NCBI GenBank assembly: GCA_944321685.1
Contig: CALUMH010000048.1
Span: forward strand, 1-64,000
From: an uncultured Muribaculaceae bacterium
GTDB lineage: Bacteria; Bacteroidota; Bacteroidia; Bacteroidales; Muribaculaceae
Length of the DNA: 64,000 nt
Reading direction: 5' to 3'
Part shown: one piece after another, positions 9,541 through 36,239 of the stretch
Numbering within the stretch: position 1 is the stretch's first letter
How the letters are laid out: each line of letters opens with the position of its first letter
Program-made: the position numbers and the translations under genes
The notes under the pieces: model-generated
Databases searched by the model: none
Told to the model about the DNA's origin: nothing
The model's input: only the letters and a program-made list of their open reading frames with translations

Positions 9541-9752
9541 AATTATACGTTTAAATTGAATGTTAATGCAAAATAAGTGTATGAAAATTAAAAAAACAAG
9601 AAAAGTATAGAATATTTTGTGTATATTATGCGAAATATCTGTTTTTTATAGACAGGCACCATGTTTTGAAGTTACGGGTGCCTTGTTGCTACCCCTTTTG
9701 AGTCGGGCTTATTCAAGTGTCGCATGGAAATGTTTCTATTCCGAAAAATTAT
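9541..9752. other. Intergenic region upstream of trpB
   Basis: An AT-rich stretch containing the trpB start region. AGGCACC (9654-9660) and GGTGCCT (9677-9683) could form a 7-bp hairpin with a 16-base loop, but no T-run follows on either strand. No gene is seen. Confidence 0.4.
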
Positions 9753-10265
9753 ATGAAAAACTTGATTAACGGAAAGAATCCCGAATTTGACTTGAAAGCC
9801 AACGGTGTGAATGCGACAGAAGGAATGGTTGTGGCGCAATATGTCATGATATCGGCATTCTAGTCGTTACTGTCGGTATGCTAATCGGTTGGTTTGCGGG
9901 CTTGTCATTGAAGGCAATGTGGCGAATACCTATTTTGTTGCTATACTTTTCAGGCTCGTTATGTCAGGATTGGTGTTGTTCATTGCTAATAAGTCGGCAA
10001 CAATTTTACAAAGTATATTCGTGATGTTTGCTTTCATTGTTATGTTCCTGCTTATGGGGAGACTTTTTACACCCATAGCGTCAACGCTGCAATGGACACA
10101 ATGTTTTATTTTTATCGAAATAATGTGTTCGGTTTATTTGAAAGGTGTAGGTAGCCTTTGGGAACAGTATTTATCATTGGTTTTGCTTTGATATTCAGCC
10201 TTGTGGCAGCCGTTATATATAAAAACGAAATTAAAGTATGCTTATTTGGCATTTTCCCGCTTTGA
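9753..10265 (+). pseudogene. Decayed gene for a multi-helix membrane protein
   Basis: No single intact frame spans this region, but three frames read as consecutive pieces of one hydrophobic protein of about 170 residues. The first piece begins MKNLINGKNPEFDLKANG and stops at 9861-9863. A second frame then gives LVVTVGMLIGWFAGL. A third covers about 9910-10080 with at least two further helices (VAILFRLVMSGLVLFIA and IFVMFAFIVMFLLMG). The original frame resumes near 10160 with VFIIGFALIFSLVAAVIY and stops at 10263-10265. At least two frameshifts are needed. The 3' end overlaps the convergent transporter gene by 24 bases. The family is not recognised. Sequencing or assembly errors could mimic decay. 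Confidence 0.45.
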
Positions 10266-11156
10266 CTTGCGATATAATTGCCAACTGTTTATGGTGTTTT
10301 GCCATACTATGTATGCAGCAGGAGCAACCGACACTATAGGATTTAGATATGTGAGTGTCATCCAAAGTCCTAAAATCGTGTTTTTTTGTCCGAGTCCTTG
10401 GGCGCCTGAAATTTTATCGCCGAAATGCCGTCCTATTTTTCGCCCGATGAAAAATTGCAGGCAGCACACAATTAATGCAGTGATTGTAAGGCATATCATT
10501 TCAGGTAGTTCTTCAACCGGCTGTTTGATCATGAAACTCACGGCTTGCCCCATGACGATGAATAAAGATATTGCCCATATCCAAAACGATATTGACTGGT
10601 GTTCGGCAATGGTAGAATGTATGCGAGGAACCGAGAATTTCAATAATATTGCAGTAACAAACGGGATTAGCAGCAATGGAATGACTTCGGCACATATGGT
10701 TGTAAATGATTCCATGAAATCGATGCCGTCGCCACGTATAAACGACAGGCATGATGGTGCTGCAACTGCTACTACAAGGTTGCTTAGCAAGGAATATGTT
10801 GCAATTTTTGTTACACTTCCCCCGAGCATGCCGGTGATAACCGGTGCTGCAGTTGCCGTCGGCATGAAAAAGCAAATGAATGCTCCGGCGGCAATGTTTG
10901 GATTTATGAAATAAAGCCCGGCATAAAACAATGCCCCGCCAATGATTTGTATGCCCAATAGTGACCATTGGAATTTTGTTATCCTGAACTCACTAATTTT
11001 CAGTTTTGTATAAGTGATAGTGAGCATTACAAAAATTAAGTATGGGGTAATGACCGATAACTTATCGATATGGTTATGGAATAATATACCACCCAACATG
11101 GATATCGGTAGCATCCATGATTTTAATAGCTGCCTGATGTGAATATCTCTAAGCAT
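10242..11156 (-). CDS. Bile acid:sodium symporter (BASS)-family transporter
   Basis: A 304-residue polytopic inner-membrane protein with about nine or ten predicted hydrophobic helices, no signal peptide and a positively charged tail. It resembles the BASS superfamily, including the ASBT-like bacterial transporters that move organic anions with sodium. The region FMPTATAAPVITGMLGG and the late segment GQKNTILGLWMTLTYLNP resemble the two discontinuous, helix-breaking substrate/sodium-binding regions of that family. The true substrate is unknown; bacterial members carry bile salts, pantoate or other carboxylates. It lies downstream of hisS but is separated from it by a terminator. Confidence 0.75.
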   Translation of the reverse strand: MLRDIHIRQLLKSWMLPISMLGGILFHNHIDKLSVITPYLIFVMLTITYTKLKISEFRITKFQWSLLGIQIIGGALFYAGLYFINPNIAAGAFICFFMPTATAAPVITGMLGGSVTKIATYSLLSNLVVAVAAPSCLSFIRGDGIDFMESFTTICAEVIPLLLIPFVTAILLKFSVPRIHSTIAEHQSISFWIWAISLFIVMGQAVSFMIKQPVEELPEMICLTITALIVCCLQFFIGRKIGRHFGDKISGAQGLGQKNTILGLWMTLTYLNPIVSVAPAAYIVWQNTINSWQLYRKSKRENAK

Positions 11157-11164
11157 GATAATAA

Positions 11165-11198
11165 TAAAAGAGCCGCCTTTTATGTTTGTGGCGGCTCT
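11165..11198 (-). terminator. Terminator downstream of hisS
   Basis: AGAGCCGCC (11169-11177) and GGCGGCTCT (11190-11198) form a perfect 9-bp stem with a 12-base loop. Read on the minus strand, the stem is followed by TTTTATTAT. Confidence 0.85.
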
Positions 11199-11212
11199 AA
11201 GGTATTTTAGAA

Positions 11213-12580
11213 TTAATTATTTTTTAACTTGTCGATTAGTTGTTCGATCGATAGTGTGGATTGTTCCCCTGTTGCCATATCTTTGAGTGAAATGCAGTGG
11301 TTTGCCACTTCAGTTTCTCCTACAAGTGCGACGTATGGGATGTGCAAAGCATCGGCATATGACATCTGTTTTTTCATCTTCACTGCTTCAGGGTAAATTT
11401 CGGCTGCGATGCCGGCTTTGCGTAAAGCCATTACGTGTTTCATGCATTCGTTGCATTCGGTCGTGCCGAAATTGATGAAAATAACCTTTGTGCCGTTTGA
11501 AGTTTCGGCAGGGTATAGGTTGAGCGCATTCAGTACGTCGTATATACGGTCGGCGCCAAAACTAATGCCTACGCCCGATACTCCTTGAAGCCCAAAAACG
11601 CCAGTAAGGTTATCATAACGTCCGCCGCCGCTGATGCTGCCTATTTCCACGTCACGAGCTTTAACCTCGATGATTGTACCTGTATAATAGTTGAGCCCGC
11701 GTGCAAGTGATACGTCCACTTCTACCGAGGCTTTCATATCAAGGCGGGAAAGATTGTCGAAGATAAAAGTCATCTCTTCGAGACCTTTCATACCGATTTC
11801 CGATGTTGCAAGCATGGCTTTCAGTGTAGCCAGTTTGTCACTATTGCTGCCGTTGAGTTGCAAAAGTGGTTGCAGTGTGGCTATAGCATCGTCGGAAATG
11901 CCTTTAGAGCGCAGTTCTTCATTTACATTGTCAATGCCGATCTTGTCGATTTTGTCAATTGCGACAGTTATATCAACTATTTTGTCGGCAGCTCCTATTG
12001 TTTCGGCAATGCCTGAAAGAATTTTGCGGTTATTGACTTTGATTGTGACATTTATGCCGAAGCGATTGAACACTTCATCAATCATTGTCAATAATTCAAT
12101 CTCGTTAATCAACGAATCGCTCCCTACAATGTCGGCATCGCATTGGTAGAACTCACGGTAACGGCCTTTTTGCGGTCGGTCGGCACGCCACACGGGTTGT
12201 ATTTGGTAACGCTTGAAGGGGAATTGTATTTCATTGCGGTGCTGAACCACAAATCTGGCGAAAGGAACTGTGAGGTCATAGCGCAGGCCTTTTTCGCAAA
12301 TGTGTGAAGTAAGGTGAACCGAGTCATGTTCGGCCAATTCGCAATCGGGTATATCTTTCAGGTAATCGCCGCTGTTCAATATTTTGAACAGTAACTTGTC
12401 GCCTTCTTCACCATATTTACCCATCAATGTTGACAGGTTCTCCATTGCCGGGGTTTCGATTTGGCGGAACCCGTAAAGCAGGAACACATCTTTAATAGTA
12501 TTGAATATGTAATTGCGTTTCGCCATCTCTTCGGGCGAAAAGTCCCTTGTTCCCTTGGGAATGCATGGTTTTTGTGCCAT
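11213..12580 (-). CDS. hisS: Histidyl-tRNA synthetase
   Basis: A 455-residue class II aminoacyl-tRNA synthetase that charges tRNA-His. The N-terminus has [17 protein letters not shown] (motif 1 region). Motif 2 is visible as [29 protein letters not shown]. The His-A signature is [12 protein letters not shown], and the GGGRYDNL and [13 protein letters not shown] segments complete the catalytic core. The C-terminal anticodon-binding domain spans about 365-455. Length and motif order are normal. The gene sits in its own transcription unit between two terminators. Confidence 0.97.
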
Positions 12581-12605
12581 AATGGTTGTCGTTTTTTTGT
12601 AAGGG

Positions 12606-12613
12606 CAAAATTA
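12606..12613 (-). promoter_or_regulatory. Bacteroides -7 promoter box for hisS
   Basis: The minus strand reads TAATTTTG, matching TAnnTTTG, 25 bases before the hisS start. It lies just beyond the terminator of the upstream peptidase gene. No clear -33 box is seen. Confidence 0.45.
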
Positions 12614-12623
12614 CAAAAAAGTC

Positions 12624-12678
12624 AGAGCCTGTTTAAATTTTATTCAAAATAATATAGAGTAAAATTTAAGCAGGCTCT
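12624..12678 (-). terminator. Long hairpin terminator of the zinc peptidase gene
   Basis: The arms 12624-12642 and 12660-12678 pair over 19 bp with a single mismatch. On the minus strand the hairpin is followed by GACTTTTTTG. It directly follows the peptidase stop codon. Confidence 0.85.
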
Positions 12679-12681
12679 TAA

Positions 12682-13362
12682 TTAATCACGTCGGTTTCCC
12701 AAGAAAATCATCACATAATAGACAAGAGTAGCCAAAGAACCGAGGGCGGCCACCACATATGTATAAGCTGCCGAGCGGAGAGCATCGGCTGCATGGTCGT
12801 GGCTTGCTCCTGTGGTTATCCCACTGCGGTTGAGCCAAGCAAGTGCGCGTCGGCTGGCATCGATTTCAACCGGCAATGTGACAAAACTGAACAAGGTGGT
12901 TATGGCAAACAGTATTATGCCGATGAGCAAAATTTGCGGCAATGTTTGCACGAGCAATATTCCAGCAAGCAGCACCCACGACATCCATTGTGATGCGAAA
13001 TTCACGGCAGGTACGAGTTTCGAGCGCATTTGCAAGAAACTGTATTGTGTAGCGTGCTGTACTGCGTGTCCGCATTCATGAGCAGCCACTGCTGCCGCTG
13101 CTACGCTGCAACTGCCGTAAACGCCTTCACTAAGGTTCACGGTTTTATCGGTAGGATTATAGAAATCGGTCAGCATTCCGTTGGTGCTGCGCACTTGAAC
13201 ATCATAAATTCCATTGTCATGCAGCATTTTCAGTGCTACATCGCGTCCCGTCATGCCTCCCGGCAGGGGTTCTTGCGAATATCGGTTGAACTTGTTTTTA
13301 AGCGATGCTTGTACAAGATAGCTTATTATGGCTATCGCAATAAAAATTATAAACGGTGTCAT
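12682..13362 (-). CDS. Membrane zinc metallopeptidase, YugP-like
   Basis: A 226-residue membrane protein of the Zn-dependent neutral peptidase family that includes Bacillus YugP. An N-terminal helix (about 2-18) precedes a soluble part carrying the zinc motif HECGH at 95-99. Two or three hydrophobic helices follow (about 128-175 and 205-222). The ATG at 13362 is chosen because MTPFIIFIAI gives the usual short N-terminal anchor; a longer frame start 42 bases upstream adds a charged leader unlike the family. Substrates are unknown for this family; roles in membrane protein turnover have been proposed. Confidence 0.85.
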   Translation of the reverse strand: MTPFIIFIAIAIISYLVQASLKNKFNRYSQEPLPGGMTGRDVALKMLHDNGIYDVQVRSTNGMLTDFYNPTDKTVNLSEGVYGSCSVAAAAVAAHECGHAVQHATQYSFLQMRSKLVPAVNFASQWMSWVLLAGILLVQTLPQILLIGIILFAITTLFSFVTLPVEIDASRRALAWLNRSGITTGASHDHAADALRSAAYTYVVAALGSLATLVYYVMIFLGNRRD

Positions 13363-13528
13363 AATTGTATTCTTAATTTTATTGGTTCTGTGAATGATTT
13401 TCAATCTTCAAAAATTGTGCCATCATGTAAACCGTTTTTTGATTTCTGCTTATGTCATAAAGTTGTCGGGCCTGCATATTATTGTCAAAAAACATATTGT
13501 GTTTTCATTCCTTTTCGGGAATAATGGT

Positions 13529-13536
13529 TAACTTTG
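13529..13536 (+). promoter_or_regulatory. Bacteroides -7 promoter box for the nucleotidyltransferase-galE operon
   Basis: TAACTTTG matches TAnnTTTG and lies 51 bases before the ATG of the nucleotidyltransferase gene. No -33 TTTG is seen at 19-21 bases. Confidence 0.45.
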
Positions 13537-13587
13537 CATAGTGCATCATGTGTGATGCGAGTTTGACATTTATTTATCAATTAAAGA

Positions 13588-14502
13588 ATGAAACCTACAT
13601 TACTTGTATTGGCTGCCGGGATGGGTAGCAGATATGGCGGATTGAAACAATTGGATGGGATTGGCCCCAATGGGGAAACTATCATGGACTATTCGATATT
13701 CGATGCCATACGTGCTGGTTTCGGAAAAGTCGTTTTCGTTATCAGACACGATTTTGAAAAAGATTTCAGGGAAAAAATATTGAGTAAATATGAAAACCAC
13801 ATTCCGGTAGAAGTCGTTTTCCAAGCAATAGACAAGCTGCCTGCCGGTTTTAAACCGAATCCTGAACGGACAAAACCGTGGGGTACCAATCATGCAGTGC
13901 TTATGGGATGTGAGGTGATAAATGAACCGTTTGCCGTAATAAATGCCGATGATTTTTACGGGCAAGACAGTTTTGCTGTGCTGGCCAAGGCATTGCAAGA
14001 AATGGCAGAAAAGGAAAATGAATATTGCATGGTGGGATTCCATGTCGGCAATACCCTTAGTGAAAGTGGCGAAGTGTCGCGTGGCGTATGTAATATTTCG
14101 GATTCGGGATTTCTTACCACAGTGACTGAACGACATCATATAATGCGTCGTGACAATGGCGTGATTTCTTACTTGGATGAAGACGGTTCGGCATATCAAC
14201 TTGCCGATGATACGTTGGTATCGATGAATATGTGGGGATTTACTCCCGACTATTTTGATTATTCGAAAAAAGAATTGACCGAATTCCTCACTGCACACAG
14301 TAACGACTTAAAAACAGAATTCTACATACCTTCGATGGTAAATAAGCTGATAACCGAAAATATCGCATCGGTCAAGGTTTATGGTACCACATCATCATGG
14401 TTCGGCGTGACATACGCCGCAGACAAGCCATCGGTCATGGCCAATGTTGCAAGATTGGTATCCAATGGCATATATCCGAACAGATTGTTTGATTTTAAAT
14501 AA
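13588..14502 (+). CDS. Sugar-phosphate nucleotidyltransferase family protein
   Basis: A 304-residue cytoplasmic protein with the GT-A nucleotidyltransferase signature LVLAAGMGSRYGGLKQL at about 5-21, followed by a substrate region ending in the metal-binding Asp of VINADDFYG. Enzymes of this fold transfer a nucleoside monophosphate to a sugar 1-phosphate. galE starts 12 bases downstream on the same strand, so a role in supplying UDP-glucose, UDP-galactose or a related nucleotide sugar is likely. It is shorter and more divergent than classical GalU or RmlA, so the nucleotide and sugar remain open. Confidence 0.8.
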   Translation: MKPTLLVLAAGMGSRYGGLKQLDGIGPNGETIMDYSIFDAIRAGFGKVVFVIRHDFEKDFREKILSKYENHIPVEVVFQAIDKLPAGFKPNPERTKPWGTNHAVLMGCEVINEPFAVINADDFYGQDSFAVLAKALQEMAEKENEYCMVGFHVGNTLSESGEVSRGVCNISDSGFLTTVTERHHIMRRDNGVISYLDEDGSAYQLADDTLVSMNMWGFTPDYFDYSKKELTEFLTAHSNDLKTEFYIPSMVNKLITENIASVKVYGTTSSWFGVTYAADKPSVMANVARLVSNGIYPNRLFDFK

Positions 14503-14514
14503 AACTAAATTATC

Positions 14515-15549
14515 ATGAAAGGTAAAATTTTAGTGACCGGTGGAACCGGATATATCGGCTCGCACACCGTGGTTGAACTTCAGAATGCCGGTTATGACGT
14601 TGTTATAATTGACAATTTGTCGAACAGTAATATTGAGGTTCTTGACGGCATCGAAAAAATCACAGGTGTACGTCCTGTATTTGTAAAAGGTGATTGCACC
14701 GACTTGGCAACACTTACAAAACTTTTTGAGGACAATCCCGGAATAAACGGAATTATTAATTTCGCAGCCAGCAAAGCAGTGGGAGAATCGGTACAAAAAC
14801 CGTTGTTGTATTATTATAACAACCTCACTACTCTTATCAACCTATTGAAATTGATGCCGCAATATGGAACAAAGGGCATAGTATTCTCTTCTTCTTGTAC
14901 CGTTTACGGAGAACCCGACAAAAATCCGGTTGACGAAACAGCTCCTATAAAAAAGGCAACCTCTCCTTATGGAAACACCAAGCAGATATCGGAAGAAATA
15001 ATTACCGATTACATTAATTCGGGTGCACCTATCAAGAGCATAATATTGAGATATTTTAATCCTGTGGGTGCGCATCCAAGTGCAGAAATAGGCGAATTGC
15101 CCAACGGCGTTCCACAAAACTTAATTCCGTATCTGACTCAAACTGCAATAGGCATACGCAAGGAACTGAGTGTGTTTGGAAATGATTACAATACCCCGGA
15201 CGGATCGTGCATACGAGACTTTATCAATGTGGTTGACCTTGCTAAAGCCCATGTTACGGCACTCGCACGAATGCTTGAAGACAAGAGCGAAGAGAAACTT
15301 GAGATTTTCAATCTTGGAACAGGTGTCGGATTGTCGGTGCTTGAATTGATTAATTCATTTGAGCGTGCCACAGGTGTAAAAGTACCGCATAAGATTGTGG
15401 GTCGCCGCAGTGGTGATATCGAGAAAGTGTGGGCCGAGCCAAAGAAAGCCAATGAAGTGCTTGGCTGGAAAGCCACAACCTCAATTGATGATACCATGCG
15501 CTCGGCTTGGAACTGGCAATTGAAATTGCGTGAGAGAGGGATTATGTAA
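14515..15549 (+). CDS. galE: UDP-glucose 4-epimerase
   Basis: A 344-residue extended short-chain dehydrogenase/reductase that interconverts UDP-glucose and UDP-galactose with bound NAD. The Rossmann motif GGTGYIGSH is at about 9-17, the catalytic Ser/Thr region is FSSSCTVYG, and the YxxxK pair is in SPYGNTK. The substrate-binding regions RYFNPVGAHPS and DGSCIRDFINVVDLAKAH are intact. It is the second gene of an operon with the nucleotidyltransferase, and a terminator-like hairpin follows. The product would feed galactose metabolism or glycan synthesis. Confidence 0.96.
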   Translation: MKGKILVTGGTGYIGSHTVVELQNAGYDVVIIDNLSNSNIEVLDGIEKITGVRPVFVKGDCTDLATLTKLFEDNPGINGIINFAASKAVGESVQKPLLYYYNNLTTLINLLKLMPQYGTKGIVFSSSCTVYGEPDKNPVDETAPIKKATSPYGNTKQISEEIITDYINSGAPIKSIILRYFNPVGAHPSAEIGELPNGVPQNLIPYLTQTAIGIRKELSVFGNDYNTPDGSCIRDFINVVDLAKAHVTALARMLEDKSEEKLEIFNLGTGVGLSVLELINSFERATGVKVPHKIVGRRSGDIEKVWAEPKKANEVLGWKATTSIDDTMRSAWNWQLKLRERGIM

Positions 15550-15574
15550 TTGAATTAAACATAAGTAAACAGTT

Positions 15575-15625
15575 GGCGTACAGTCGCAGGTGAGAAAAAC
15601 TTCGAGTGTACGCCGCTTTTGTTTT
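15575..15625 (+). terminator. Terminator after galE
   Basis: GGCGTACA (15575-15582) pairs with TGTACGCC (15607-15614), and the stem is followed by GCTTTTGTTTTC. The ATG of the next gene is only 17 bases beyond the stem. Confidence 0.7.
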
Positions 15626-15630
15626 CTGAT

Positions 15631-16647
15631 ATGGTCATAAGGTTGTTTTTAAGTATAGTCGCATTGTGTTGTGGTTACATAGGTGTCCATGCCCAATTGT
15701 GGAACCCTGATATTTTGGGCGGGAATTATTTTTGTAAAGAAATATTGCAGCCCGATGATTATTCGGGTAAAGTAAGGACAACTGTAATAAGGCAAAATTC
15801 GCAATATGCCACCGATAAGGCTGTGTTATATGTGCATGGATACAATGATTATTTTTTCCAACAGGAGCTTGGCGATAAATTTGTCGATAATGAGTATAAT
15901 TTCTATGCCGTGGATTTACGCAAATACGGACGTTCGCTGTTGCCCGGACAAATACCGTTTGAAGTGCGGAATTTGGAAGAATATTTCAATGATATAAATG
16001 CGGCACTCGATGCAATATTGCAGGATGGCAATAAATCCATTATTCTTATGGGGCATTCTACCGGAGGCTTGATTACTTCATATTATATGGCCAAAGAGGA
16101 GCATTTGAAATATCCCATCAAGGCTTTGGTACTGAATAGTCCGTTTTTGGATATGAATTTGGATGTTGTCACTGAAGATTTTGTTTTGCCGTTTGTCGGC
16201 CGGTTTGCAACTTTATTTCCTGATATTTCCATAAACCAAGGGGGCGGCAACCAATATGCTCGTACATTATTGAAGCGATATGGCGGTGAATGGGATTATG
16301 ATACGCAGTTGAAATTTGAATGGCCGCAACCTGTAACGACAGGTTGGCTGCGAGCCATAACACGTGCGCAGGATATGCTGCATAGGGGAGCGGATATCAA
16401 TGTGCCTATATTGTTGATGCGTTCCGATAAAAGCGGTGCTGACAGTGGTTTGAACGATGAAGAGGCACGTAATGCCGATATGGTACTCGATGTGGCAGAA
16501 ATTTCGCGTTATGGCAAGAGGCTTGGAACTGATATAACGGAATTTGTAGTAAAAGACGGAATGCACGACTTGTTTTTATCGCGCATTCCGGTCAGGTATG
16601 CATTATATTCACATATGCTTGAATGGTTACGTGAAAAAGGGTTATGA
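15631..16647 (+). CDS. Exported alpha/beta hydrolase
   Basis: A 338-residue serine hydrolase. An N-terminal signal peptide of about 20 residues ends in VHAQ, suggesting cleavage after HA and an exported mature enzyme. The nucleophile elbow GHSTGG and the late HDLF segment supply the Ser and His of the triad. The HGYNDYFFQQ segment near the start is the usual oxyanion region. It looks like the lysophospholipase/monoglyceride lipase (Hydrolase_4) type, so a lipid or ester substrate is likely but unproven. The ATG at 15631 is preferred to the TTG 12 bases upstream. The stop overlaps the convergent lipoprotein gene by 6 bases. Confidence 0.82.
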   Translation: MVIRLFLSIVALCCGYIGVHAQLWNPDILGGNYFCKEILQPDDYSGKVRTTVIRQNSQYATDKAVLYVHGYNDYFFQQELGDKFVDNEYNFYAVDLRKYGRSLLPGQIPFEVRNLEEYFNDINAALDAILQDGNKSIILMGHSTGGLITSYYMAKEEHLKYPIKALVLNSPFLDMNLDVVTEDFVLPFVGRFATLFPDISINQGGGNQYARTLLKRYGGEWDYDTQLKFEWPQPVTTGWLRAITRAQDMLHRGADINVPILLMRSDKSGADSGLNDEEARNADMVLDVAEISRYGKRLGTDITEFVVKDGMHDLFLSRIPVRYALYSHMLEWLREKGL

Positions 16648-26074: not shown

Positions 26075-26082
26075 TAAGTTTG
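26075..26082 (+). promoter_or_regulatory. Bacteroides -7 promoter box for the sigma-54 regulator gene
   Basis: TAAGTTTG matches TAnnTTTG, 21 bases before the ATG. No -33 TTTG is found at the usual distance. Confidence 0.4.
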
Positions 26083-26103: not shown

Positions 26104-27447
26104 ATGGCATTGCAAGGTACAATACTTGTGGTTGATGATAACCGTAACATACTGATATCTCTTAAATATTTGCTTGGCGATGTTTTTGCCAAGGTATTGC
26201 TTGTGGATAATCCCGAATTGCTGCCGTCATTGTTGCGGGAACAGATTGATGTGGTTTTGCTTGACATGAATTTTTCACCCGGATTGAATACGGGCAATGA
26301 GGGGTTGTATTGGTTGAGAGAAATAAAGCGATTGAAACCGCAAGTGCAAGTGGTGTTGTTTACCGCATATGCCGATATTGAACTTGCTGTGGCCGGTATG
26401 AAGGAAGGGGCTTTTGATTTCGTGGTCAAACCGTGGGATAATGCAAGGTTGAAACAAACTTTGACAAACGCATATAAGGTGACCAAAGGTGAGAAACACA
26501 ATATTAAAAATGAAAAGCAGGAACCTGATGCAATGTATTGGGGTCAGTCGCCTGCGATGTACCATATTAAGGAAATTGTGGAGCGAATAAGTGCATCGGA
26601 TGCGAATGTGCTGATTACCGGAGAGAATGGAACGGGGAAAGATATGCTTGCCAGGGAAATACACCGACTGTCGGAACGAAACAATAGGCAATTTGTTGTC
26701 GTGGACATGGGTGCAATTACCGAGTCGTTATTTGAAAGTGAGTTGTTCGGGCACGTTAAAGGATCGTTTACCAATGCTTATACCGACCGCGTGGGGCGAT
26801 TTGAGGCTGCCGATGGTGGAACGCTGTTCCTTGATGAGATAGCAAACCTGCCATATTGTTTGCAGCCAAAATTGTTGACGGCCATCCAAAAACGAAGTTA
26901 TGTAAGAGTTGGCAGCAATGTGCCGCAACCTACCGATATTCGCTTGATTTGCGCCACAAATCGTAACCTTGATAATATGGTGCGGAATGGTGAATTTCGG
27001 GAAGACCTGTTATATCGTATCAACACGATACATTTGCATTTGCCTCCGTTGAGGGAACGAAAGGAAGATATTATAGAGCTTGCCCATAGGTTTGTATGCC
27101 GATATGCAGGGCAATATGGCCGCGGAGATGTGAGGTTGTCGGATAAAGTGTGTGAAATTCTGATAAACCATTCATGGCCCGGAAATATCAGAGAGTTACA
27201 ACATGTGATGGAGAGGGCGGTATTATTATCGGATAATAACGGAACTATCTGTTCGGTGCAAATTCAAGAGAGCCACAATGATGGATTAAAACAAGAAAAT
27301 GACACGATTGTACCTCTTGATGAAATGGAACGGAATATGGTACAAAAAGCCATAATGATGAATAACGGCAACTTGTCGCAAGCTGCCGCACAATTGGGAA
27401 TAACACGGCAAACGCTGTATAACAAGATGAAGCGATATGGGCTTTGA
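26104..27447 (+). CDS. Sigma-54-type response regulator (NtrC/AtoC family)
   Basis: A 447-residue enhancer-binding protein with a receiver (1-125; DD at 11-12, phospho-acceptor D54, Lys K109), a AAA+ central domain (about 145-375; Walker A GENGTGKD at 173-180, Walker B GTLFLDEI at 239-246) and a C-terminal Fis-type helix-turn-helix ([20 protein letters not shown]). The sigma-54 contact loop reads GSFTNA at 220-225 instead of the canonical GAFTGA. The kinase gene overlaps its 3' end by 11 bases. Downstream lies a palindrome and a -24/-12-like site in front of an export operon, its probable target. Confidence 0.93.
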
Positions 27448-28744
27448 TAAGATTGCATATTCGTTACCGGTTCGTGCGGCACTATTGTTATGCGGTGGTG
27501 CTTTGATTGCCGGTGGGGTGGCCAAGTGGGGCGATTTTTTTATTGTAATCGGTGTCATTCTTGTGTTGGTTGCCATAGCGCTTATGTTTAAAGTTTACAG
27601 GACAATGCAAGAAAACAGCCGCTTAATGCTCGAAGCGGTGAAAAACGGCGACAATTCGTTTAAGTTGAATGAAAAAGGTATATATTCCTATGAAAGGATA
27701 TTACAAATAACATTGAATGAGTTTGGTGAAATAATGGGGCGGCAAAAACTGATAATGGAGCAACGTGAACAGTTTTTCGGCATGATTTTGACGAATGTGA
27801 CTACAGGTGTTGTTGTTCTTGACAAGGATAATAAAATCATTCAAACAAATCCTGTTGCATCCAAGTTGCTACATTTGCCATTGTTTTATTCATTGAAACA
27901 GTTGGAACGTCATGACATTAATCTTCCGGAAATGTTGAGTGCCATGAAAAATGGGGAGCGGTTGCAGGTGGATTTTACAACTTCCACAGGAGAAGTGCAT
28001 TTGTTGGTGAAAGCGGCTGAAATGGTACTTGGCAACGAGCAGGTGAAGATACTTGCCATTAGTGATATTAAAAATGAGCTTGATGCAAAAGAACTTGAAA
28101 CTTGGATAAAACTTACCCGGATATTGACACATGAAATAATGAATTCGGTGGCTCCGATAGCATCGCTGAGTGCCACTTTCCTTGACAAAGCAGAAATTAA
28201 GAATAGCAATATTTATGAAGGAATGCAAGCTATTCATGACACTGCTGCCGGCCTTGTTTCATTTGTTGATAATTACCGTGTGATTTCCACGTTACAAAAG
28301 CCTGCACCGAAACCATTTTATTTGTCGGAGATGGTAGAAAGTATTAATAATTTGAATTTTATACCGGCAAAAATAGAATTCTCATGCAGGATAGAGCCAC
28401 AAGACCTGATGATTTATGCCGACCCTAATTTAATAAGACAAGTATTGATTAACATATTGAAAAACGCAGTACAGGCAATAGGGGATAATTCTGGTAAAAT
28501 ACATATTAATGCACATACTCTGTCAACCGGACATATATATGTCTATATCAGTAATGATGGTCCTATAGTCCCCGTCGATGTCGCAGAGACGATTTTTATG
28601 CCATTTTTCACGACACGGAAAGACGGTAACGGCATAGGCTTGTCGTTGTCGCGACAAATTATGAAATTAAGTGGCGGCAGTATAAGTCTGCTTGATGCCG
28701 GAACCAATGGTTGGAATACGACTTTCTTGCTTGAATTTGAATAA
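27437..28744 (+). CDS. Sensor histidine kinase, NtrY-like
   Basis: A 435-residue membrane kinase. Two closely spaced helices (about 10-27 and 30-50) leave almost no periplasmic loop, so it probably senses an intramembrane or cytoplasmic cue. A PAS-like region follows (about 110-215, starting near FGMILTNVTTGVVVLDKDNKII). The H-box is LTHEIMNSVAPI with His 232, and the ATPase domain has NILKNAVQAIGD, SNDGP and DGNGIGLSLSRQI. It overlaps the response-regulator gene by 11 bases, so the pair is translationally coupled. Such NtrB/NtrY-type kinases usually phosphorylate a sigma-54 activator. Confidence 0.9.
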   Translation: MGFDKIAYSLPVRAALLLCGGALIAGGVAKWGDFFIVIGVILVLVAIALMFKVYRTMQENSRLMLEAVKNGDNSFKLNEKGIYSYERILQITLNEFGEIMGRQKLIMEQREQFFGMILTNVTTGVVVLDKDNKIIQTNPVASKLLHLPLFYSLKQLERHDINLPEMLSAMKNGERLQVDFTTSTGEVHLLVKAAEMVLGNEQVKILAISDIKNELDAKELETWIKLTRILTHEIMNSVAPIASLSATFLDKAEIKNSNIYEGMQAIHDTAAGLVSFVDNYRVISTLQKPAPKPFYLSEMVESINNLNFIPAKIEFSCRIEPQDLMIYADPNLIRQVLINILKNAVQAIGDNSGKIHINAHTLSTGHIYVYISNDGPIVPVDVAETIFMPFFTTRKDGNGIGLSLSRQIMKLSGGSISLLDAGTNGWNTTFLLEFE

Positions 28745-28748
28745 CCGA

Positions 28749-28788
28749 GTGTAAAATAATTTGACATCGATGTCTAAATTTTTTACAC
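28749..28788. promoter_or_regulatory. 40-bp palindrome, candidate enhancer (UAS) for the sigma-54 regulator
   Basis: The two 20-base halves pair at 17 of 20 positions. The perfect 12-bp centre is GACATCGATGTC (28763-28774) and the ends are GTGTAAAA and TTTTACAC. It starts 4 bases after the kinase stop codon, and its centre is about 73 bp upstream of a -24/-12-like element. This is the placement expected of a binding site for the Fis-type domain of the adjacent regulator. A role as a transcription terminator is possible but less fitting. Confidence 0.6.
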
Positions 28789-28839
28789 ATTTGCTTAATG
28801 TGGTTGTTGTATATTGTTGGTAATGAGCGTGTTGTGTTT

Positions 28840-28855
28840 TTGGCTTGATGTTTGA
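28840..28855 (+). promoter_or_regulatory. Sigma-54-like -24/-12 promoter of the export operon
   Basis: TTGGC (28840-28844) and TTGA (28852-28855) give GG-N10-GA, one base short of the GG-N10-GC rule. The predicted start is about 21 bases before the TolC-like gene. The upstream palindrome and adjacent sigma-54 regulator support the call. Confidence 0.5.
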
Positions 28856-28887
28856 ATATATTATAGCAGAAACATAATATTATACCA

Positions 28888-30243
28888 ATGAGAATGAGTT
28901 TAACCACATTATGGAATTTAACGGCATTATGTTTTTCTGCTGCAAGTTTACAACTTCATGCACAAGAAGTGTGGAGTGTGGATCGATGCATGGCATATGC
29001 GGTGGAACATAACCGCACGGTGCGGCAACGCAGTTATGAAGTGGATAATTACAAAATCGACCGTATGAATGCCATAGGTAGTTTCTTGCCGGGAATTAGC
29101 GGGGGATCTTCGTTGCAATACAGTTGGGGACGTTCGGTCGATCCGGAAACCAATACCTATAACAATATTTCTACGTTTAATAATTCGTATTCGCTTGAAG
29201 CCTCGTTGACCATCTTTAATGGAGGCAACCTGGTTAACCAATTGCGACGGTCGAAGGCCGCTGAATTGATGGGAAAAGCTGCATTGCAGGTGGAACAAGA
29301 CAATACGGCTATCGAAACTTTCCAGGCATATATTGATGCGTTATATTATTATGGGTCGGTGAAACTTGCTCGGGAAAAAGTGGCAGAAAGTGATTCGTTG
29401 TTGCGCAAGACTCGTCGGCAAGAAGAACTTGGATTGAAAGGAATGGCAGACGTTGCACAGATAGAGGCACAATATGCCACTGATGATTATACGTTAACCA
29501 ATCAAATTAACTTGTATGAAGCGGCAATGCTTGCATTGAAACAGCAAATGAATTATCCGCTTGATAACCCCTTGATGCTCGACACGGTGTTGCTTGAGAC
29601 TAATGCCATCGATTTATCGTTGATGCCGGATGATACTTCCAATGAGATATTCGGAGTGGCTCTTGATTGTAATCCCACTTTACGGCAATCTCATTATAAC
29701 AGGGAAGTTTATAAGTTGGATATGAAACGGTCATGGGCAAATGTGTTACCTACCGTTTCATTGTTTGCCGGTATAAATTCATCATATTACAAGGAGTTGA
29801 ATGTAACCGGATATGCTGATTTTTGGCAGCAATTGCAGAACAATTTCGGACAGTATGTGGGTATGCGCATAAGCATACCGCTGTTTAATGGTTTTTCACG
29901 GGTGAATTCTGTGCGCAAGGCAAAAAACAATTACCGTATTGCAAGCGAACAATACGAGGCACAAAAAGAGGAACTGCAGAAACTTGTGGCTCAGGCCGTG
30001 CTTGACCGTAACGGTTTCTTAAAAGAGAGCATACAAATGGAAAAGAAAGTACATTCCGATTCGATAGCTTATCATGTGACGAAGCGTAAATATGAAGAGG
30101 GGCTTATGACTTCGCTCGATGTGCAAACGAGTGCCTCGGCATTGCTTGAAAGTAAAGTAACGCTGTTGCGCAGTAAGTTGTCGTATGTGTTAAAATGCCG
30201 GCTTGTGGACTATTACAAAGGAAATAATATTATCAAAGATTAA
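28888..30243 (+). CDS. TolC-family outer-membrane efflux protein
   Basis: A 451-residue outer-membrane channel subunit. The signal peptide (about 1-25) ends in LHAQ. The mature protein consists of long alpha-helical, coiled-coil-like segments typical of the two OEP repeats (about 35-230 and 240-445). It is the first gene of a five-gene exporter operon: TolC, HlyD-type adaptor, two MacB-like permeases and the ATPase. It would form the outer-membrane exit duct. The cargo is unknown; MacAB-TolC type systems move peptides, lipids or antibiotics. Confidence 0.9.
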   Translation: MRMSLTTLWNLTALCFSAASLQLHAQEVWSVDRCMAYAVEHNRTVRQRSYEVDNYKIDRMNAIGSFLPGISGGSSLQYSWGRSVDPETNTYNNISTFNNSYSLEASLTIFNGGNLVNQLRRSKAAELMGKAALQVEQDNTAIETFQAYIDALYYYGSVKLAREKVAESDSLLRKTRRQEELGLKGMADVAQIEAQYATDDYTLTNQINLYEAAMLALKQQMNYPLDNPLMLDTVLLETNAIDLSLMPDDTSNEIFGVALDCNPTLRQSHYNREVYKLDMKRSWANVLPTVSLFAGINSSYYKELNVTGYADFWQQLQNNFGQYVGMRISIPLFNGFSRVNSVRKAKNNYRIASEQYEAQKEELQKLVAQAVLDRNGFLKESIQMEKKVHSDSIAYHVTKRKYEEGLMTSLDVQTSASALLESKVTLLRSKLSYVLKCRLVDYYKGNNIIKD

Positions 30244-30260
30244 AAGAACAGGAAAATACT

Positions 30261-31511
30261 ATGGATATACAAATCGAGAAAAAGCGAGGATTGCAGAAAC
30301 GTCATGTAATTTACATAGCTGTGGCTGTCGTTATGTTGTTGCTTGTGTTGTGGATCTTTTTTAATCCATATGTGGCGACACAAAACGTTGAGGCCAAGTC
30401 GATAACCGTAACTGATGTTGTTTATGGCGAATTCAGTGATTATGTGAGGCTTAACGGGCAGGTGAAACCGATATCGGTGGTGCAGATAAGTCCTGAAGAA
30501 GGGGGAATAGTCCGTGAAAAAGTGGTAGAAGAAGGTGAGTTTGTAAAAAGGGGGGATGTTATATTGCGATTGAGCAATTCCAACCTCGACTTGCAAATAC
30601 TCAATGCCGAGTCGGAGCTTGCCGAAAAACAAAATTTGCTGCGTAATACTCAGGTAACCATGCAACAAGATAAGTTGAATAATGAAACAGAACAAGTGCA
30701 ACTTGAAATAGATACTCGGCGTAAACGTCGCACGTATGAACAATATGAGCGTCTGTATGACGAAAAATTGATAAGTCGTGAAGAATATTTGCAAGCCTGT
30801 GAAGATTACGAGATGGCCAAAAAGAAGCATAGCCTTGTAAATGAAAGATTGGTGCAGGATTCCATCTATCGCACGATACAAATGGATCAAATGGAAGAAA
30901 ATCTTGATAATATGCGACAGAATGTGTTGCTGATACGAGAGCGAAAGAGTAAACTTGATGTACGTGCCACTATTGATGGCGAATTGGGTTTGCTTGATGT
31001 AGAACTGGGGCAAAACATTGCTGCCGGACAAATGGTTGGGCAAATTAATGATTTGTCGGGTGTAAAAATAGAGGCTTATATCGACGAGCATTACATAGAC
31101 CGTGTTTCAACCGGTCTGTCGGCTGCACTTGACCGCCAAGGGAGCCGTTTCAGCCTAAAGGTGCGCAAGGTGTATCCCGAAGTGCGTGACGGACGATTTC
31201 GCACCGACCTCGTGTTTGATGGAGAATTGCCCGATAATGTTAGGATAGGGCAGACTTATTATATAGACCTTCAACTTGGGGAATCTACCGAAAGTGTACT
31301 TGTTCCTAAAGGAACTTTTTTCCAAACCACAGGTGGACGATGGATATTTGTGGTTGACAAAGATGGCGGCAAGGCATATCGCCGCGAAATACGCATAGGC
31401 CGACAAAATCCACAATATTATGAAGTACTTGACGGGCTTGAAAAAGGTGAGCGGGTAATTGTGTCGGGATATGAGAGTTTTAAGGATAAGGATGTTCTGA
31501 TTTTAGATTGA
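30261..31511 (+). CDS. HlyD/MacA-family periplasmic adaptor
   Basis: A 416-residue membrane-fusion protein. One N-terminal helix (about 14-34) anchors it in the inner membrane. A barrel-sandwich (lipoyl-like) domain flanks a long coiled-coil hairpin (about 105-230, with EQVQLEIDTRRKRRTYEQYE and the second strand MEENLDNMRQN), followed by beta-barrel and membrane-proximal domains to the C-terminus (GLEKGERVIVSGYESF). It bridges the ABC permeases and the TolC-like protein. It is 17 bases downstream of tolC and 7 bases before the first permease, so cotranscription is certain in practice. Confidence 0.9.
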   Translation: MDIQIEKKRGLQKRHVIYIAVAVVMLLLVLWIFFNPYVATQNVEAKSITVTDVVYGEFSDYVRLNGQVKPISVVQISPEEGGIVREKVVEEGEFVKRGDVILRLSNSNLDLQILNAESELAEKQNLLRNTQVTMQQDKLNNETEQVQLEIDTRRKRRTYEQYERLYDEKLISREEYLQACEDYEMAKKKHSLVNERLVQDSIYRTIQMDQMEENLDNMRQNVLLIRERKSKLDVRATIDGELGLLDVELGQNIAAGQMVGQINDLSGVKIEAYIDEHYIDRVSTGLSAALDRQGSRFSLKVRKVYPEVRDGRFRTDLVFDGELPDNVRIGQTYYIDLQLGESTESVLVPKGTFFQTTGGRWIFVVDKDGGKAYRREIRIGRQNPQYYEVLDGLEKGERVIVSGYESFKDKDVLILD

Positions 31512-31518
31512 TATTGTC

Positions 31519-33861
31519 ATGAAAGGATTTAAGACATATTTTACATTTCTCAGTCGTAACAAGATGTTCACTGTTATCAATGTTACGGGGCTTGCAGTGT
31601 CGTTTATGTTCATCCTGCTGATCGCAGATATGGTTACACGACAACTCTCGGTGGATAGCGATGTGCCGGATGCCGACCGTATCTTTATTTTCGCATCCAA
31701 TAGTAATGCGTTAGGGCATTATCAGCTTGGGCTGAAATTCCAAGACCGATATCCCGAAATAGAAGATTGGTGCGCGTATGGTGGGATACAGGAATTGCTA
31801 TGCCGATCGGTTGGTGACCAAGAAATGTTGATGGGCGTAAGTTTCGTAAAGAAAAATTATTTTGACTTTTTCGGACATCCTCTTTTGGAAGGTCGGGCAA
31901 TTGATGCACTTGTGTCGGATAATAATGTAGTGCTTACGCGGTCGGCGGCATACAGTCTATTCGGCAATGAGCCGGTAATGGGAAAGAATATTGAAATATC
32001 GGGTATGTCGTTTGTCGTGAACGGTGTGGTAGAAGATGTCGATAATTCTATTTTCCCGAATGTAATAGGCATATTTGTTCCTATCGAAAACATTAAGCAT
32101 TTCAATTATAGTGCTGACATTAATGACACGAATATGGGTAATGCTGGTTCTGCAATGGTGTTTTTCAAATATGTGGAAGGTTTCGATCCTTCTGAAAAAA
32201 AGAGGGATATGGAAAACTATGTTAAGGAATTCTTTTGGATTTATCAATATGGCAATGCACACGGTGTGCAAATGATGCCTATGCGTGATTTTTATTTTTC
32301 CAAAATCACAGCGTGGCTCGGTGTTATGCAATATGATTTCGAGAAGGTGATTGTATTCTTTATAACAGGTATTATAATTTTGTTAATGGCCATTGGCAAT
32401 TATGTGAGCATGAGTGTGGCGCAAACAGTATATCGGGCTAAAGAGATGGCGACTCGCCGCTTGCTTGGTTCCTCGCGAGGCAGCGTGTTTTGGAGAATGA
32501 TCGAAGAATCGCTGTTCATGACGGTAGTCGCATTCTTTATAGGTTTATTGCTGGCAAAAGCGGCTGAGCCATATGCCATGGAATTGCTTGGAGTACGACT
32601 TGATATTTTAGGTGATTTTACTTGGATTACGATTGCTTGTTGGTTGGCGTTTGTATTGTTGTTGTCGTTTGTTGCCGGGTTTGTACCGGCATCGATACTG
32701 TCGGGTTATAATCCTCTTGATGTCGAAAAAGGAACATTCCGCCGCAAAACCAAGATGGTGTATTTGAGAGCACTTAATGTTTTGCAGAGTGGCCTTACCA
32801 TAGCATTGCTTGCTTGTTCCATATATTTGGGAATTCAAATATATAGTGTGCTTAATGCCCCTCTCGGTTATAATTACGGTAACGTGCTTGTGTGTCCTAC
32901 AACTAATATAATGGACAATTTGACAACGTTCAGGAGCGAGGTGAAAAAATTGCCGTTTGTGAGAAATGTATCGTTTACGCAGGGTACCCCGAATGACGGT
33001 GGAAACAACAATACGACAAGGATACAATCGGGAGATTCGGCGGTTACTTTCAGTTTTCAGACATTTCGGGCCGATTCCTCGTTTTTGAAAATCTTTGATA
33101 TTCAAATCACCGAAGATCGCCGTTTGGCCGATAGTTGGCAGTCGGTGTATATCAGTGACGATGCCTACAATGACCTGGAAAAATTAGATGCAAATACAGA
33201 AAAATTACCATTAAGCAAGTATAAAAATATAGCAGGTCGATTTAAGGATTTCAAGATTAGATCGATATTGCAATAAGCAAAACATCCGTTGCTGATGCAA
33301 ATATGTCCTTCCGACAGCATATGGCCATGGCAAGTGCTGGTGGAAGTGGAGGATGGTGACTTGGAATATTACAAGCAGCAGATAGATAATTTATTAGTGC
33401 AAATATATCAAATGTCCGGCTTTGACACGGAATGGTATGACGAAATGATGACTGATACCTATCGCGACATAATAAATATGAACAAAATCATAATTATCTT
33501 TACTTGTGTTGCTTTACTTGTTTCGCTGCTTGGATTGACGGCGATGAACATATATATGATTTCGCAGCGTAAGCGCGACATTGCCGTGCGTAAGGTGTTT
33601 GGGTCAACAGCAAAGATAGAGATAGCGTCACTAATGCGTTATTCATTGATGTCGGTAGTAATAAGTCTTGCGATAGCAATTCCGTTGTCGATTGTAGGAA
33701 TGATTAAAATTTATGATTTTGTCCCATATGGTGATATCCCGACGTGGTGGATCCCGATTGTTGCATTTGCAATAGTAGTTGTTGTATCGCTTTTGTCGGT
33801 TTACCTGATAGGGCGCAAAGCTGCCAATGAGAATCCAATAGAAAATATAAAGACAGAATAA
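31519..33861 (+). pseudogene. MacB/FtsX-like ABC permease interrupted by an in-frame stop
   Basis: The reading frame encodes a permease of 780 residues, close in length to its 791-residue paralogue just downstream. It carries one TAA at 33274-33276 (codon 586). The frame does not shift: the 194 codons after the stop (AKHPLLMQICPSD onward) continue the paralogue alignment to its end. The part before the stop has a MacB-type helix near 20-40, a large periplasmic domain, and three helices around 275-400. The last membrane helices lie after the stop (about 655-775). A point mutation of a sense codon such as GAA to TAA, readthrough, or a sequencing error would all explain it. Confidence 0.8.
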
Positions 33862-33863
33862 AT

Positions 33864-36239
33864 ATGAAAGATTTTAAGACATATTTCACGTTTCTCAGTC
33901 GGAACAAGATGTTTACGACAATTAATGTTGCCGGGCTTGCGGTGTCGTTTATGTTCATATTGCTGATTGCCGATATGGTTACACGGCAACTTACAGTGGA
34001 CAGAGATGTACGTGATGCCGACCGCATCTATATGTACACCACGGGTAAAGATGTGTTTGGACATTATAACCTCGGACAACGATTTCAAGACCGTTTTCCC
34101 GAAATTGAAGACTGGTGTGCATTTGCCAAGTGCGCTGAATTGGAATGTAATTTAGAGGATATGCAAACGATTGTGGCACATACGGCTTTTGTGAAAGACA
34201 ATTTTTTTGATTTTTTTGGATACAAAATTATAGAAGGTGATGCCAAAACTATGTTGTCGGCTGATAACAATATTGTGCTTACACGTTCAGGTGCAATAAA
34301 GTTTTTCGGAACAGAAAAAGTTGTGGGAAAGATGTTAAATTTACAATTCCCGACCACACATAAGTCAGGTACGTTTACAGTTACAAGTGTTGTTGAAGAT
34401 ATCGATAATTCGATATTTCCAGATGGAATTGAAGCTTTTGTGCCGATTGAACAGGTTGTTAATTATGATTCGTCAATGGATGTACGTGATGCAATAATGG
34501 AAAATGCTGCATCGGCAATCTTGTTTTTTAAATTTCCGAAAGACTATGATCCGACAACCAAGCAAGACGAAATTTTGGAATTGTTAAAAGAGTGTTTTTG
34601 GCCATACATTTATGGCGTCGTGGATTCTGTACAGATGATTAATATGCACGATTTTTATTATTCATCGGTTCCGACAATTTATGCAAGTGAACACTTGAAA
34701 CAATATGATTTTGTTAAAGTTTTGGCTTTTTTGGCGGCAGGCATTATAATTTTGCTAATGTCGGTGTTTAATTATATAAGCATGAGTGCAGCACAAACCT
34801 CTTATCGGGCAAAAGAGATGGCAACTCGTCGATTGCTCGGCTCTTATCGTGGCGATGTATTTTGGCGAATGATATTGGAAGCACTGTTTTTGACCATAAT
34901 TGCTTTTTTAATCGGATTATTGCTTGCCAAGGTAACCGAGCCGTATGCCATGGATGTGTTGGGTGTGAAACTCAACGTGATAGGTGATTTTACATGGCTC
35001 ACTTCAATATGCTGGCTGGTATTCTTGATTTTACTGTCGTTTTTTGCAGGACTTGTTCCGGCTTCAATATTGTCGAATTACAATCCGCTTGATGTGGTAA
35101 AAGGTACATTCCGTCGCAAAACCAAGATGGTGTATCTGCGAGTGTTAAACGTAGTGCAAAGCGGACTTACAATAGCATTGATATCATGTTCCATATATTT
35201 TGGGGTGAAGTTAAATGTGGTGTTAAATGCACCACTTGGTTATGAATATGGCAATGTGCTGTGCTATAAAAATAATGGCACGCTTGAACAATTGCAGACT
35301 TTTAGAAGCGAAGTCGAAAAATTGCCATATGTGAAGAATGTGTCTTTTACTTCAGGTACCCCGATATATGGAGGTGAAGGTTCGGCGATGGCAATAGCGA
35401 CAAGTGACACCACGGTAATGGAAATGTATCGTATTTTTGAAGTTGATTCGGCATTTTTTAAGGTGTTCAATATCAAAATTCTTGAAGACTGCAGACTTGC
35501 CAATTTGGCAAATTCTTATTACATGAGTGAAAGCACTATGGAACGCTATAAACGATTTAACCTTGGAATTGACAGGTTCAGATATGCGGGTGGTAGTGTT
35601 GATATTGCTGGGGTATTTAATGATTTCCAACTTGAATCGGTGCTTATGGACAATATGTTTGCCAATATATTGATACGAGTCAAGGACAAGGATAAGATTG
35701 TGCCACATATGATATTGGTGGATATAGAACCAGGCGACTTAGTAAATTATAAACAGAAAATTGATAAATTATATGAGGACATAGTAAAGCCGATAGGCTT
35801 TGAATCGATTTGGTATAGCGATATGATGCTGGATCAGTATAAAGGAGTGATAGACTTTAATAAAATATTGGTTGCATTCACTATTGCTGCACTCATAATA
35901 TCGCTGTTAGGCCTGATTGCCATGAATATTTATATGATTTCGCAACGAAAACGTGACATAGCTGTGCGCAGGGTGTTTGGTGCGACTGCAAAAAACGAAC
36001 AAATAAGGCTTATGCGTTTTTCTATGCAATCGATAGCTTTTAGCCTGGTTGTGGCGTTGCCGTTATTGTGGATAGGATTTAAAATGATTAACGACCTTAT
36101 TTCATATGGAGATATCCCGACGTGGTGGATCCCGATTGTTGCATTTGCCATTGTGGTTGTGGTGTCGCTCTTGTCGGTTTATTTGATAGGCCGTAAAGCT
36201 GCCAATGAGAATCCAATAGAAAATATTAAAACAGAATAA
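33864..36239 (+). CDS. MacB/FtsX-like ABC transporter permease
   Basis: An intact 791-residue permease with the MacB layout. An N-terminal helix at about 18-40 precedes a large extracytoplasmic domain (about 45-280). Three helices follow (about 285-400) around the coupling segment AAQTSYRAKEMATRRLLGS. A second extracytoplasmic domain then leads to a final set of helices, with a similar RKRDIAVRRVFGA coupling motif near 695. It begins 2 bases after the upstream paralogue, with which it shares near-identical N- and C-terminal ends. It has no ATP-binding domain of its own; the ATPase is the next gene. Confidence 0.92.
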   Translation: MKDFKTYFTFLSRNKMFTTINVAGLAVSFMFILLIADMVTRQLTVDRDVRDADRIYMYTTGKDVFGHYNLGQRFQDRFPEIEDWCAFAKCAELECNLEDMQTIVAHTAFVKDNFFDFFGYKIIEGDAKTMLSADNNIVLTRSGAIKFFGTEKVVGKMLNLQFPTTHKSGTFTVTSVVEDIDNSIFPDGIEAFVPIEQVVNYDSSMDVRDAIMENAASAILFFKFPKDYDPTTKQDEILELLKECFWPYIYGVVDSVQMINMHDFYYSSVPTIYASEHLKQYDFVKVLAFLAAGIIILLMSVFNYISMSAAQTSYRAKEMATRRLLGSYRGDVFWRMILEALFLTIIAFLIGLLLAKVTEPYAMDVLGVKLNVIGDFTWLTSICWLVFLILLSFFAGLVPASILSNYNPLDVVKGTFRRKTKMVYLRVLNVVQSGLTIALISCSIYFGVKLNVVLNAPLGYEYGNVLCYKNNGTLEQLQTFRSEVEKLPYVKNVSFTSGTPIYGGEGSAMAIATSDTTVMEMYRIFEVDSAFFKVFNIKILEDCRLANLANSYYMSESTMERYKRFNLGIDRFRYAGGSVDIAGVFNDFQLESVLMDNMFANILIRVKDKDKIVPHMILVDIEPGDLVNYKQKIDKLYEDIVKPIGFESIWYSDMMLDQYKGVIDFNKILVAFTIAALIISLLGLIAMNIYMISQRKRDIAVRRVFGATAKNEQIRLMRFSMQSIAFSLVVALPLLWIGFKMINDLISYGDIPTWWIPIVAFAIVVVVSLLSVYLIGRKAANENPIENIKTE

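Follow-up and report, generated by a model that had tools for sequence, protein, structure and literature searches.

The segment at 28749–28856 of the window (the whole 64-kb stretch of DNA that was analysed) is very probably the enhancer and promoter region of a TolC-HlyD-FtsX-ABC exporter operon, controlled by an NtrC-type sigma-54 switch. In the proposed circuit, the adjacent histidine kinase would phosphorylate the NtrC-type response regulator, and two regulator dimers would bind two 19-bp dyads with a spacing of two helical turns (21 bp). The AAA+ ring assembled on the dyads would contact the sigma-54 polymerase waiting at TGGCTTGATGTTTGAA, approximately 53 bp further on. ATP hydrolysis would then open the promoter and turn the exporter on. 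The sequences provide the predicted parts, their conservation, a fixed geometry, a concerted change of regulator and promoter, and a recognition-helix change that coincides with a half-site change. The last of these, found in one clade, is the basis on which we infer that the regulator binds the dyads. The initial annotation had suggested a local enhancer-and-promoter circuit for the export operon. This suggestion gained support from the geometry fixed in 70/71 loci, the NtrC-family regulator, the presence of RpoN and the co-change in the Prevotella-type loci. The initial annotation had overlooked that there are two sites, that they are conserved throughout Bacteroidales, and that the promoter type switches.

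Components of the predicted circuit

The features of the region are as follows.

26104–27447, + strand: NtrC-family response regulator, 447 aa, with receiver, AAA+ sigma-54 activation domain and Fis-type HTH; L1 loop GSFTNA
27437–28744, + strand: sensor histidine kinase, 435 aa, HATPase_c (PF02518); 11-bp overlap with the regulator gene
28749–28767, no strand: left dyad GTGTAAAATAATTTGACAT, the first predicted enhancer site
28770–28788, no strand: right dyad ATGTCTAAATTTTTTACAC, the second predicted enhancer site, its centre 21 bp from that of the left dyad
28841–28856, + strand: sigma-54 -24/-12 element TGGCTTGATGTTTGAA (TGGC-TTGATG-TTTGAA), 53 bp past the 17-bp core of the right dyad
28888–30243, + strand: TolC-family outer membrane efflux protein, first exporter gene
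30261–31511, + strand: HlyD/RND-type periplasmic adaptor; best NCBIfam model DarC, under cut-off
31519–33276, + strand: MacB/FtsX-type permease 1, ended early by an in-frame TAA at 33274–33276
33289–33861, + strand: C-terminal FtsX remainder of permease 1, in the same reading frame
33864–36239, + strand: MacB/FtsX-type permease 2, intact, 791 aa
36261–36938, + strand: exporter ABC ATPase; best NCBIfam model DarD, under cut-off

The initial annotation had described one 40-base palindrome with 17 of 20 matching pairs straight after the kinase gene. The inverted repeat was found at exactly 28749–28788 (centre GACATCGATGTC), beginning 5 bp past the kinase stop codon (the gene ends at 28744). No other even palindrome of 40 bp in the 64-kb window reached 17 matching pairs out of 20, and locally shuffled windows contained 0.017 such palindromes on average. 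The repeat thus exists as annotated, but it is not a single element: the 40 bp resolve into two separate tandem dyads of 17–19 bp (consensus TGTCWAAWWWTTWGACA) with centres 21 bp apart. The palindromy of the full 40 bp seems to be a by-product, because relatives space the dyads 21, 22 or 23 bp apart and the two are not always mirror images. Only the pair was specific. A single 19-bp dyad searched genome-wide at 3 mismatches gave 233 matches, as compared with 192 for the reversed-pattern control.

The promoter element contains GG at 28842–28843, followed by N10 and GA at 28854–28855. The GG-N10-GA reported earlier was confirmed, and its distance of about 73 bp held when counted from the palindrome centre to the GG. 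By itself, GG-N10-GA is weak evidence; it rises above chance because relatives keep the geometry of pair plus promoter. Relative to TGGCAC-N5-TTGCW, the window promoter is near consensus, and several relatives have the full consensus. Its conserved form is TGGCTCGATATTTGGT within the genus and TGGCAC-N5-TTGC in the other families. At -12, the window reads GA and several genus relatives read GG, instead of GC. The window promoter may be weak, because this GA replaces GC and the L1 loop of the regulator is GSFTNA rather than GAFTGA.

The Fis-type DNA-binding and AAA+ domains that had been assigned to the neighbouring regulator were recovered in domain searches (Sigma54_activat, PF00158, 224.7 bits; Fis HTH, PF02954), together with a receiver (PF00072). 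The Walker motifs GENGTGKD and GGTLFLDE are legible in its sequence. The sigma-54 contact loop varied among the orthologues (GAFTGA, GAFTDA, GSFTDA and GSFTSA, with GSFTNA in the window), while the loop F and T and the promoter GG-N10-G were kept in nearly all relatives examined. For the kinase, the best NCBIfam model was AtoS, with a score far under the AtoS cut-off. The genome encodes one RpoN (a single PF04552 match, 175 bits) with an intact RpoN box, ARRTVAKYR. Searching the same genome with the regulator as query returned two proteins with a sigma-54 activation domain. The other one (frame from 6512, contig C15) has an AAA+ domain with GAFTGA and an HTH, without an N-terminal receiver, and the 18-kb stretch around it contained no dyad pair. 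Upstream of the regulator gene, TAAGTTTG at 26075–26082 resembles a primary-sigma -7 box; therefore, the regulator–kinase pair may be made constitutively.

Intergenic gaps of 2–21 bp suggest that the genes from TolC to the ABC ATPase form one operon. In the near-identical genome G008, the permease matching the interrupted permease 1 (31519–33861) is intact, with 778 aa. The interruption of the window copy therefore reflects either recent pseudogenization or an error in the assembly. G008 (8821–16600 of its locus, L121) has three FtsX-type permeases ahead of the ATPase, versus two in the window, which suggests loss or gain through recombination between similar copies.

Conservation and distribution of the dyad pair

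Besides the nearly identical G008, five loci of the genus, with kinase identities of 58–74%, keep both dyads and the -24/-12 element. The 40 bp are free of indels in the genus intergenic alignment, where TTTGGCTCGATATTTGGTATATA (GG-N10-G and its surroundings) is among the best-conserved bases. TolC orthologues in Muribaculaceae, Phocaeicola/Bacteroides, Parabacteroides and Tannerella likewise have two dyads, 21–23 bp apart. The -24 distance was counted with the full -24/-12 score in loci with a scored dyad pair (n = 71, including some duplicates and near copies, such as L085 = L161 and L099/L100). The -24 element (TGGC-like) started 52–56 bp past the right dyad in 70 of these 71 Bacteroidales loci. 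The dyad spacing was 21 bp in 46 loci, 22 bp in 22 and 23 bp in 3. Apparent jumps of helical phase (63–65 and 74 bp) were dropped, as the full score gave 55 bp for L091, 55 bp for L107 and 52 bp for L109. L106 and L108 fell under the dyad threshold and so were unscored for this distance. Several relatives carry a textbook TGGCACG-N4-TTGCA, and L085/L161 has the perfect consensus TGGCACGCTCTTTGCA. A position weight matrix of the dyad pair, whose training sites partly overlap the tested set, gave the 79 loci, among which are the Prevotella-type ones, a median score of 32.6, as compared with a maximum of 4.5 for reversed and shuffled controls. The initial annotation had made its reading depend beforehand on conservation of the palindrome in related loci. 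Such conservation was found, with the dyad pair and the -24/-12 element kept together in 70/71.

We then scanned 14 genomes with a dyad-pair model containing no promoter. In the genome of the window, this model yielded a single pair, the one at 28749–28788. Fifteen pairs away from the query TolC genes were examined (14 found with the dyad model, and the pair of G003 that precedes its own TolC). All 15 had a -24/-12 element at 52–56 bp on one side, as compared with 0.35% of random positions in the same DNA. The genes that follow these pairs mostly encode FtsX-type permeases or an exporter ATPase; the few others include a serine-hydrolase-like protein and a small secreted protein. G005, the only genus genome without an orthologue of this kinase, showed no strong pair with the dyad-only model. 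A second pair with a -24/-12 element was present in the genus relative G007 (contig C33, site 5172). On that side, the first 1.2 kb contain no start of an open frame of at least 100 aa; the first such frame encodes a protein resembling a TrkA-C type transporter.

Several dyad pairs each were found in three genomes of family f105, of which at least one is Parabacteroides. In these (L219–L228), paralogous FtsX permeases each have their own dyad pair and sigma-54 promoter, and L219 has three dyad-pair sites within 12 kb. The f105 pairs represent a predicted regulon, rather than a single target.

Probable conversion in Prevotella-type loci and alternative explanations

The orthologous regulators of the Prevotella-type loci are mostly 173–186 aa long (L199 and L204 read 202–212). 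They consist of Response_reg and HTH_8 only, that is, a receiver and a Fis HTH, and the AAA+ domain is absent. The operons lack the -24/-12 element. TTG-N18-22-TAnnTTTG is a known form of the Bacteroidetes primary-sigma promoter. It occurred at 27/29 loci with AAA+-less regulators versus 4/48 other loci, and in nearly all of the Prevotella-type operons the TA box and the right half-site were 55–57 bp apart. L087, the lone promoter exception among the 71 loci, carries a 178-aa regulator and a primary-sigma type promoter, like the Prevotella-type loci. Loss of rpoN from these genomes had been expected, and was ruled out by the retention of RpoN in 197 of 201 genomes of the family.

A tree of the receiver and HTH resolved the split between long and short regulators as one change, with full support. 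This indicates one event, not repeated convergence. Loss is the likely direction, since outlying families have sigma-54 promoters. Four loci with short regulators (L184, L186, L202 and L205), which form one clade on the regulator tree, have the recognition helix ISRQRLYKK, as compared with [IV][TS]RQTLYNK elsewhere. Their half-sites read TGTATT/AATACA, as compared with TGTCTAA/TTAGACA elsewhere. The AAA+ loss links the motor domain of the regulator to the predicted promoter type, and the helix change links its DNA-reading helix to the putative dyad sites. Each of the two correlations has only one historical instance behind it, because the AAA+ loss and promoter switch were one event and the helix change occurred in one clade. 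The Prevotella-type lineage has probably lost the AAA+ domain in a single event, leaving a receiver–HTH activator. The -24/-12 element would have given way to a primary-sigma promoter, set at a new fixed distance; the paired sites were kept and sigma-54 mostly remained encoded. Nature would here have turned a circuit built on a sigma-54 enhancer into one with a conventional activator.

We considered whether the palindrome could instead be the intrinsic terminator of the regulator–kinase operon, lying ahead of the exporter by chance. Its start 5 bp past the kinase stop and its folding into a hairpin (-12.4 kcal/mol; z = -3.2) would fit this role, but the stem is A+T-rich with no T-tract behind it, and no terminator-like site was found within 28600–29000. 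In many relatives, the regulator gene is divergent (minus strand) beside the TolC gene and the dyad pair lies between the divergent genes, where there is nothing to terminate, yet the distance to the -24 element stays fixed. A terminator role is therefore unlikely as the conserved function, and we regard the whole explanation as highly improbable. The dyads might instead be bound by a different regulator, such as a global factor, with the adjacent NtrC-type regulator acting elsewhere or without DNA binding. The adjacency of the regulator is indeed not universal: in some Parabacteroides and Tannerella loci, the dyads are present but the retrieved flank contains no regulator gene. On the other hand, the loss of the AAA+ domain coincides with the loss of the -24/-12 element, and altered half-sites accompany the altered recognition helix. 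The genome of the window contains no other dyad pair, and in G005 the kinase orthologue and a strong pair are both missing. These observations make another binding protein unlikely.

Transcription of the exporter might be driven mainly by a primary-sigma promoter, with the -24/-12 element vestigial in the genus. The degenerate -12 (GA/GG, not GC) and the GSFTNA loop would agree with such decay, and sigma-70-like matches occur in the region, although the sigma-70 consensus does not fit Bacteroidetes. However, GG-N10-G and its neighbouring bases remain among the best-conserved intergenic positions at kinase identities down to 58%. In loci that did switch, a clear TAnnTTTG box lies at a constant distance; just 4/48 of the others show this pairing. 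We judge a vestigial -24/-12 element to be as unlikely as a foreign protein on the dyads. The NtrC-type sigma-54 switch is thus the reading that we retain.

Relation to known systems and meaning

Sigma-54 control in Bacteroidales has been little studied. The predicted window circuit belongs to the known NtrC-type sigma-54 circuits; it is the order-wide rule and the probable Prevotella conversion that are of wider interest. With the NtrC/AtoC/ZraR-type group I bacterial enhancer-binding proteins, it shares the receiver–AAA+–Fis HTH architecture, an adjacent AtoS/NtrB-like kinase, paired upstream dyads, a -24/-12 promoter and RpoN in the genome. It differs in its predicted binding site, TGTCWAAWWWTTWGACA, in the fixed distance of 52–56 bp between the pair and the -24 element, and in its target, a TolC-HlyD-FtsX ABC exporter; its scores lie under every NCBIfam equivalog cut-off shown. 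The closest named exporter is that of darobactin, DarBCD, since the best NCBIfam models of the adaptor and the ATPase are DarC and DarD. The exporter subunits nevertheless failed the DarBCD equivalog cut-offs (DarC 186 vs 450, DarD 297 vs 375 and DarB 27 vs 700 bits). RegA/PrrA/ActR-type regulators also consist of a receiver and a Fis HTH without AAA+, which is the domain make-up of the short Prevotella-type regulators. Unlike them, the Prevotella-type short form is the orthologue of a sigma-54 activator, acts at the same operon and has kept the paired sites.

Sigma-54 promoters were predicted before FtsX-type ABC antimicrobial-peptide permeases in Bacteroidia in 2025, and termed first evidence (PMC12316311). 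That work was a PSSM promoter search, and when its text was searched by term, neither UAS nor upstream activating sites, TolC or AtoC turned up. In Flavobacterium psychrophilum, sigma-54 promoters were mapped (motif SM4) and three sigma-54 activators were predicted (PMC9723704). The -24/-12 promoters in Bacteroidota are common to that study and ours, but the genes linked to them there are those of envelope stress, gliding and exported proteins, and the passages of the paper that were consulted describe no enhancer pair. Among open-licence papers, we found no description of this particular enhancer, its regulator or the promoter switch.

The results provide a searchable rule: two TGTCWAAWWWTTWGACA dyads 21–23 bp apart, with a -24 element 52–56 bp further on. 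This rule points to a predicted activator, to its sites and to the genes it would control (mostly FtsX-type ABC exporters) in gut genera, the cultured Phocaeicola and Parabacteroides among them. To the connection of sigma-54 with FtsX-type permeases that was proposed for Bacteroidia in 2025, it adds a predicted activator and its sites. The Prevotella form makes it testable how an enhancer-dependent promoter converts to an ordinary one.
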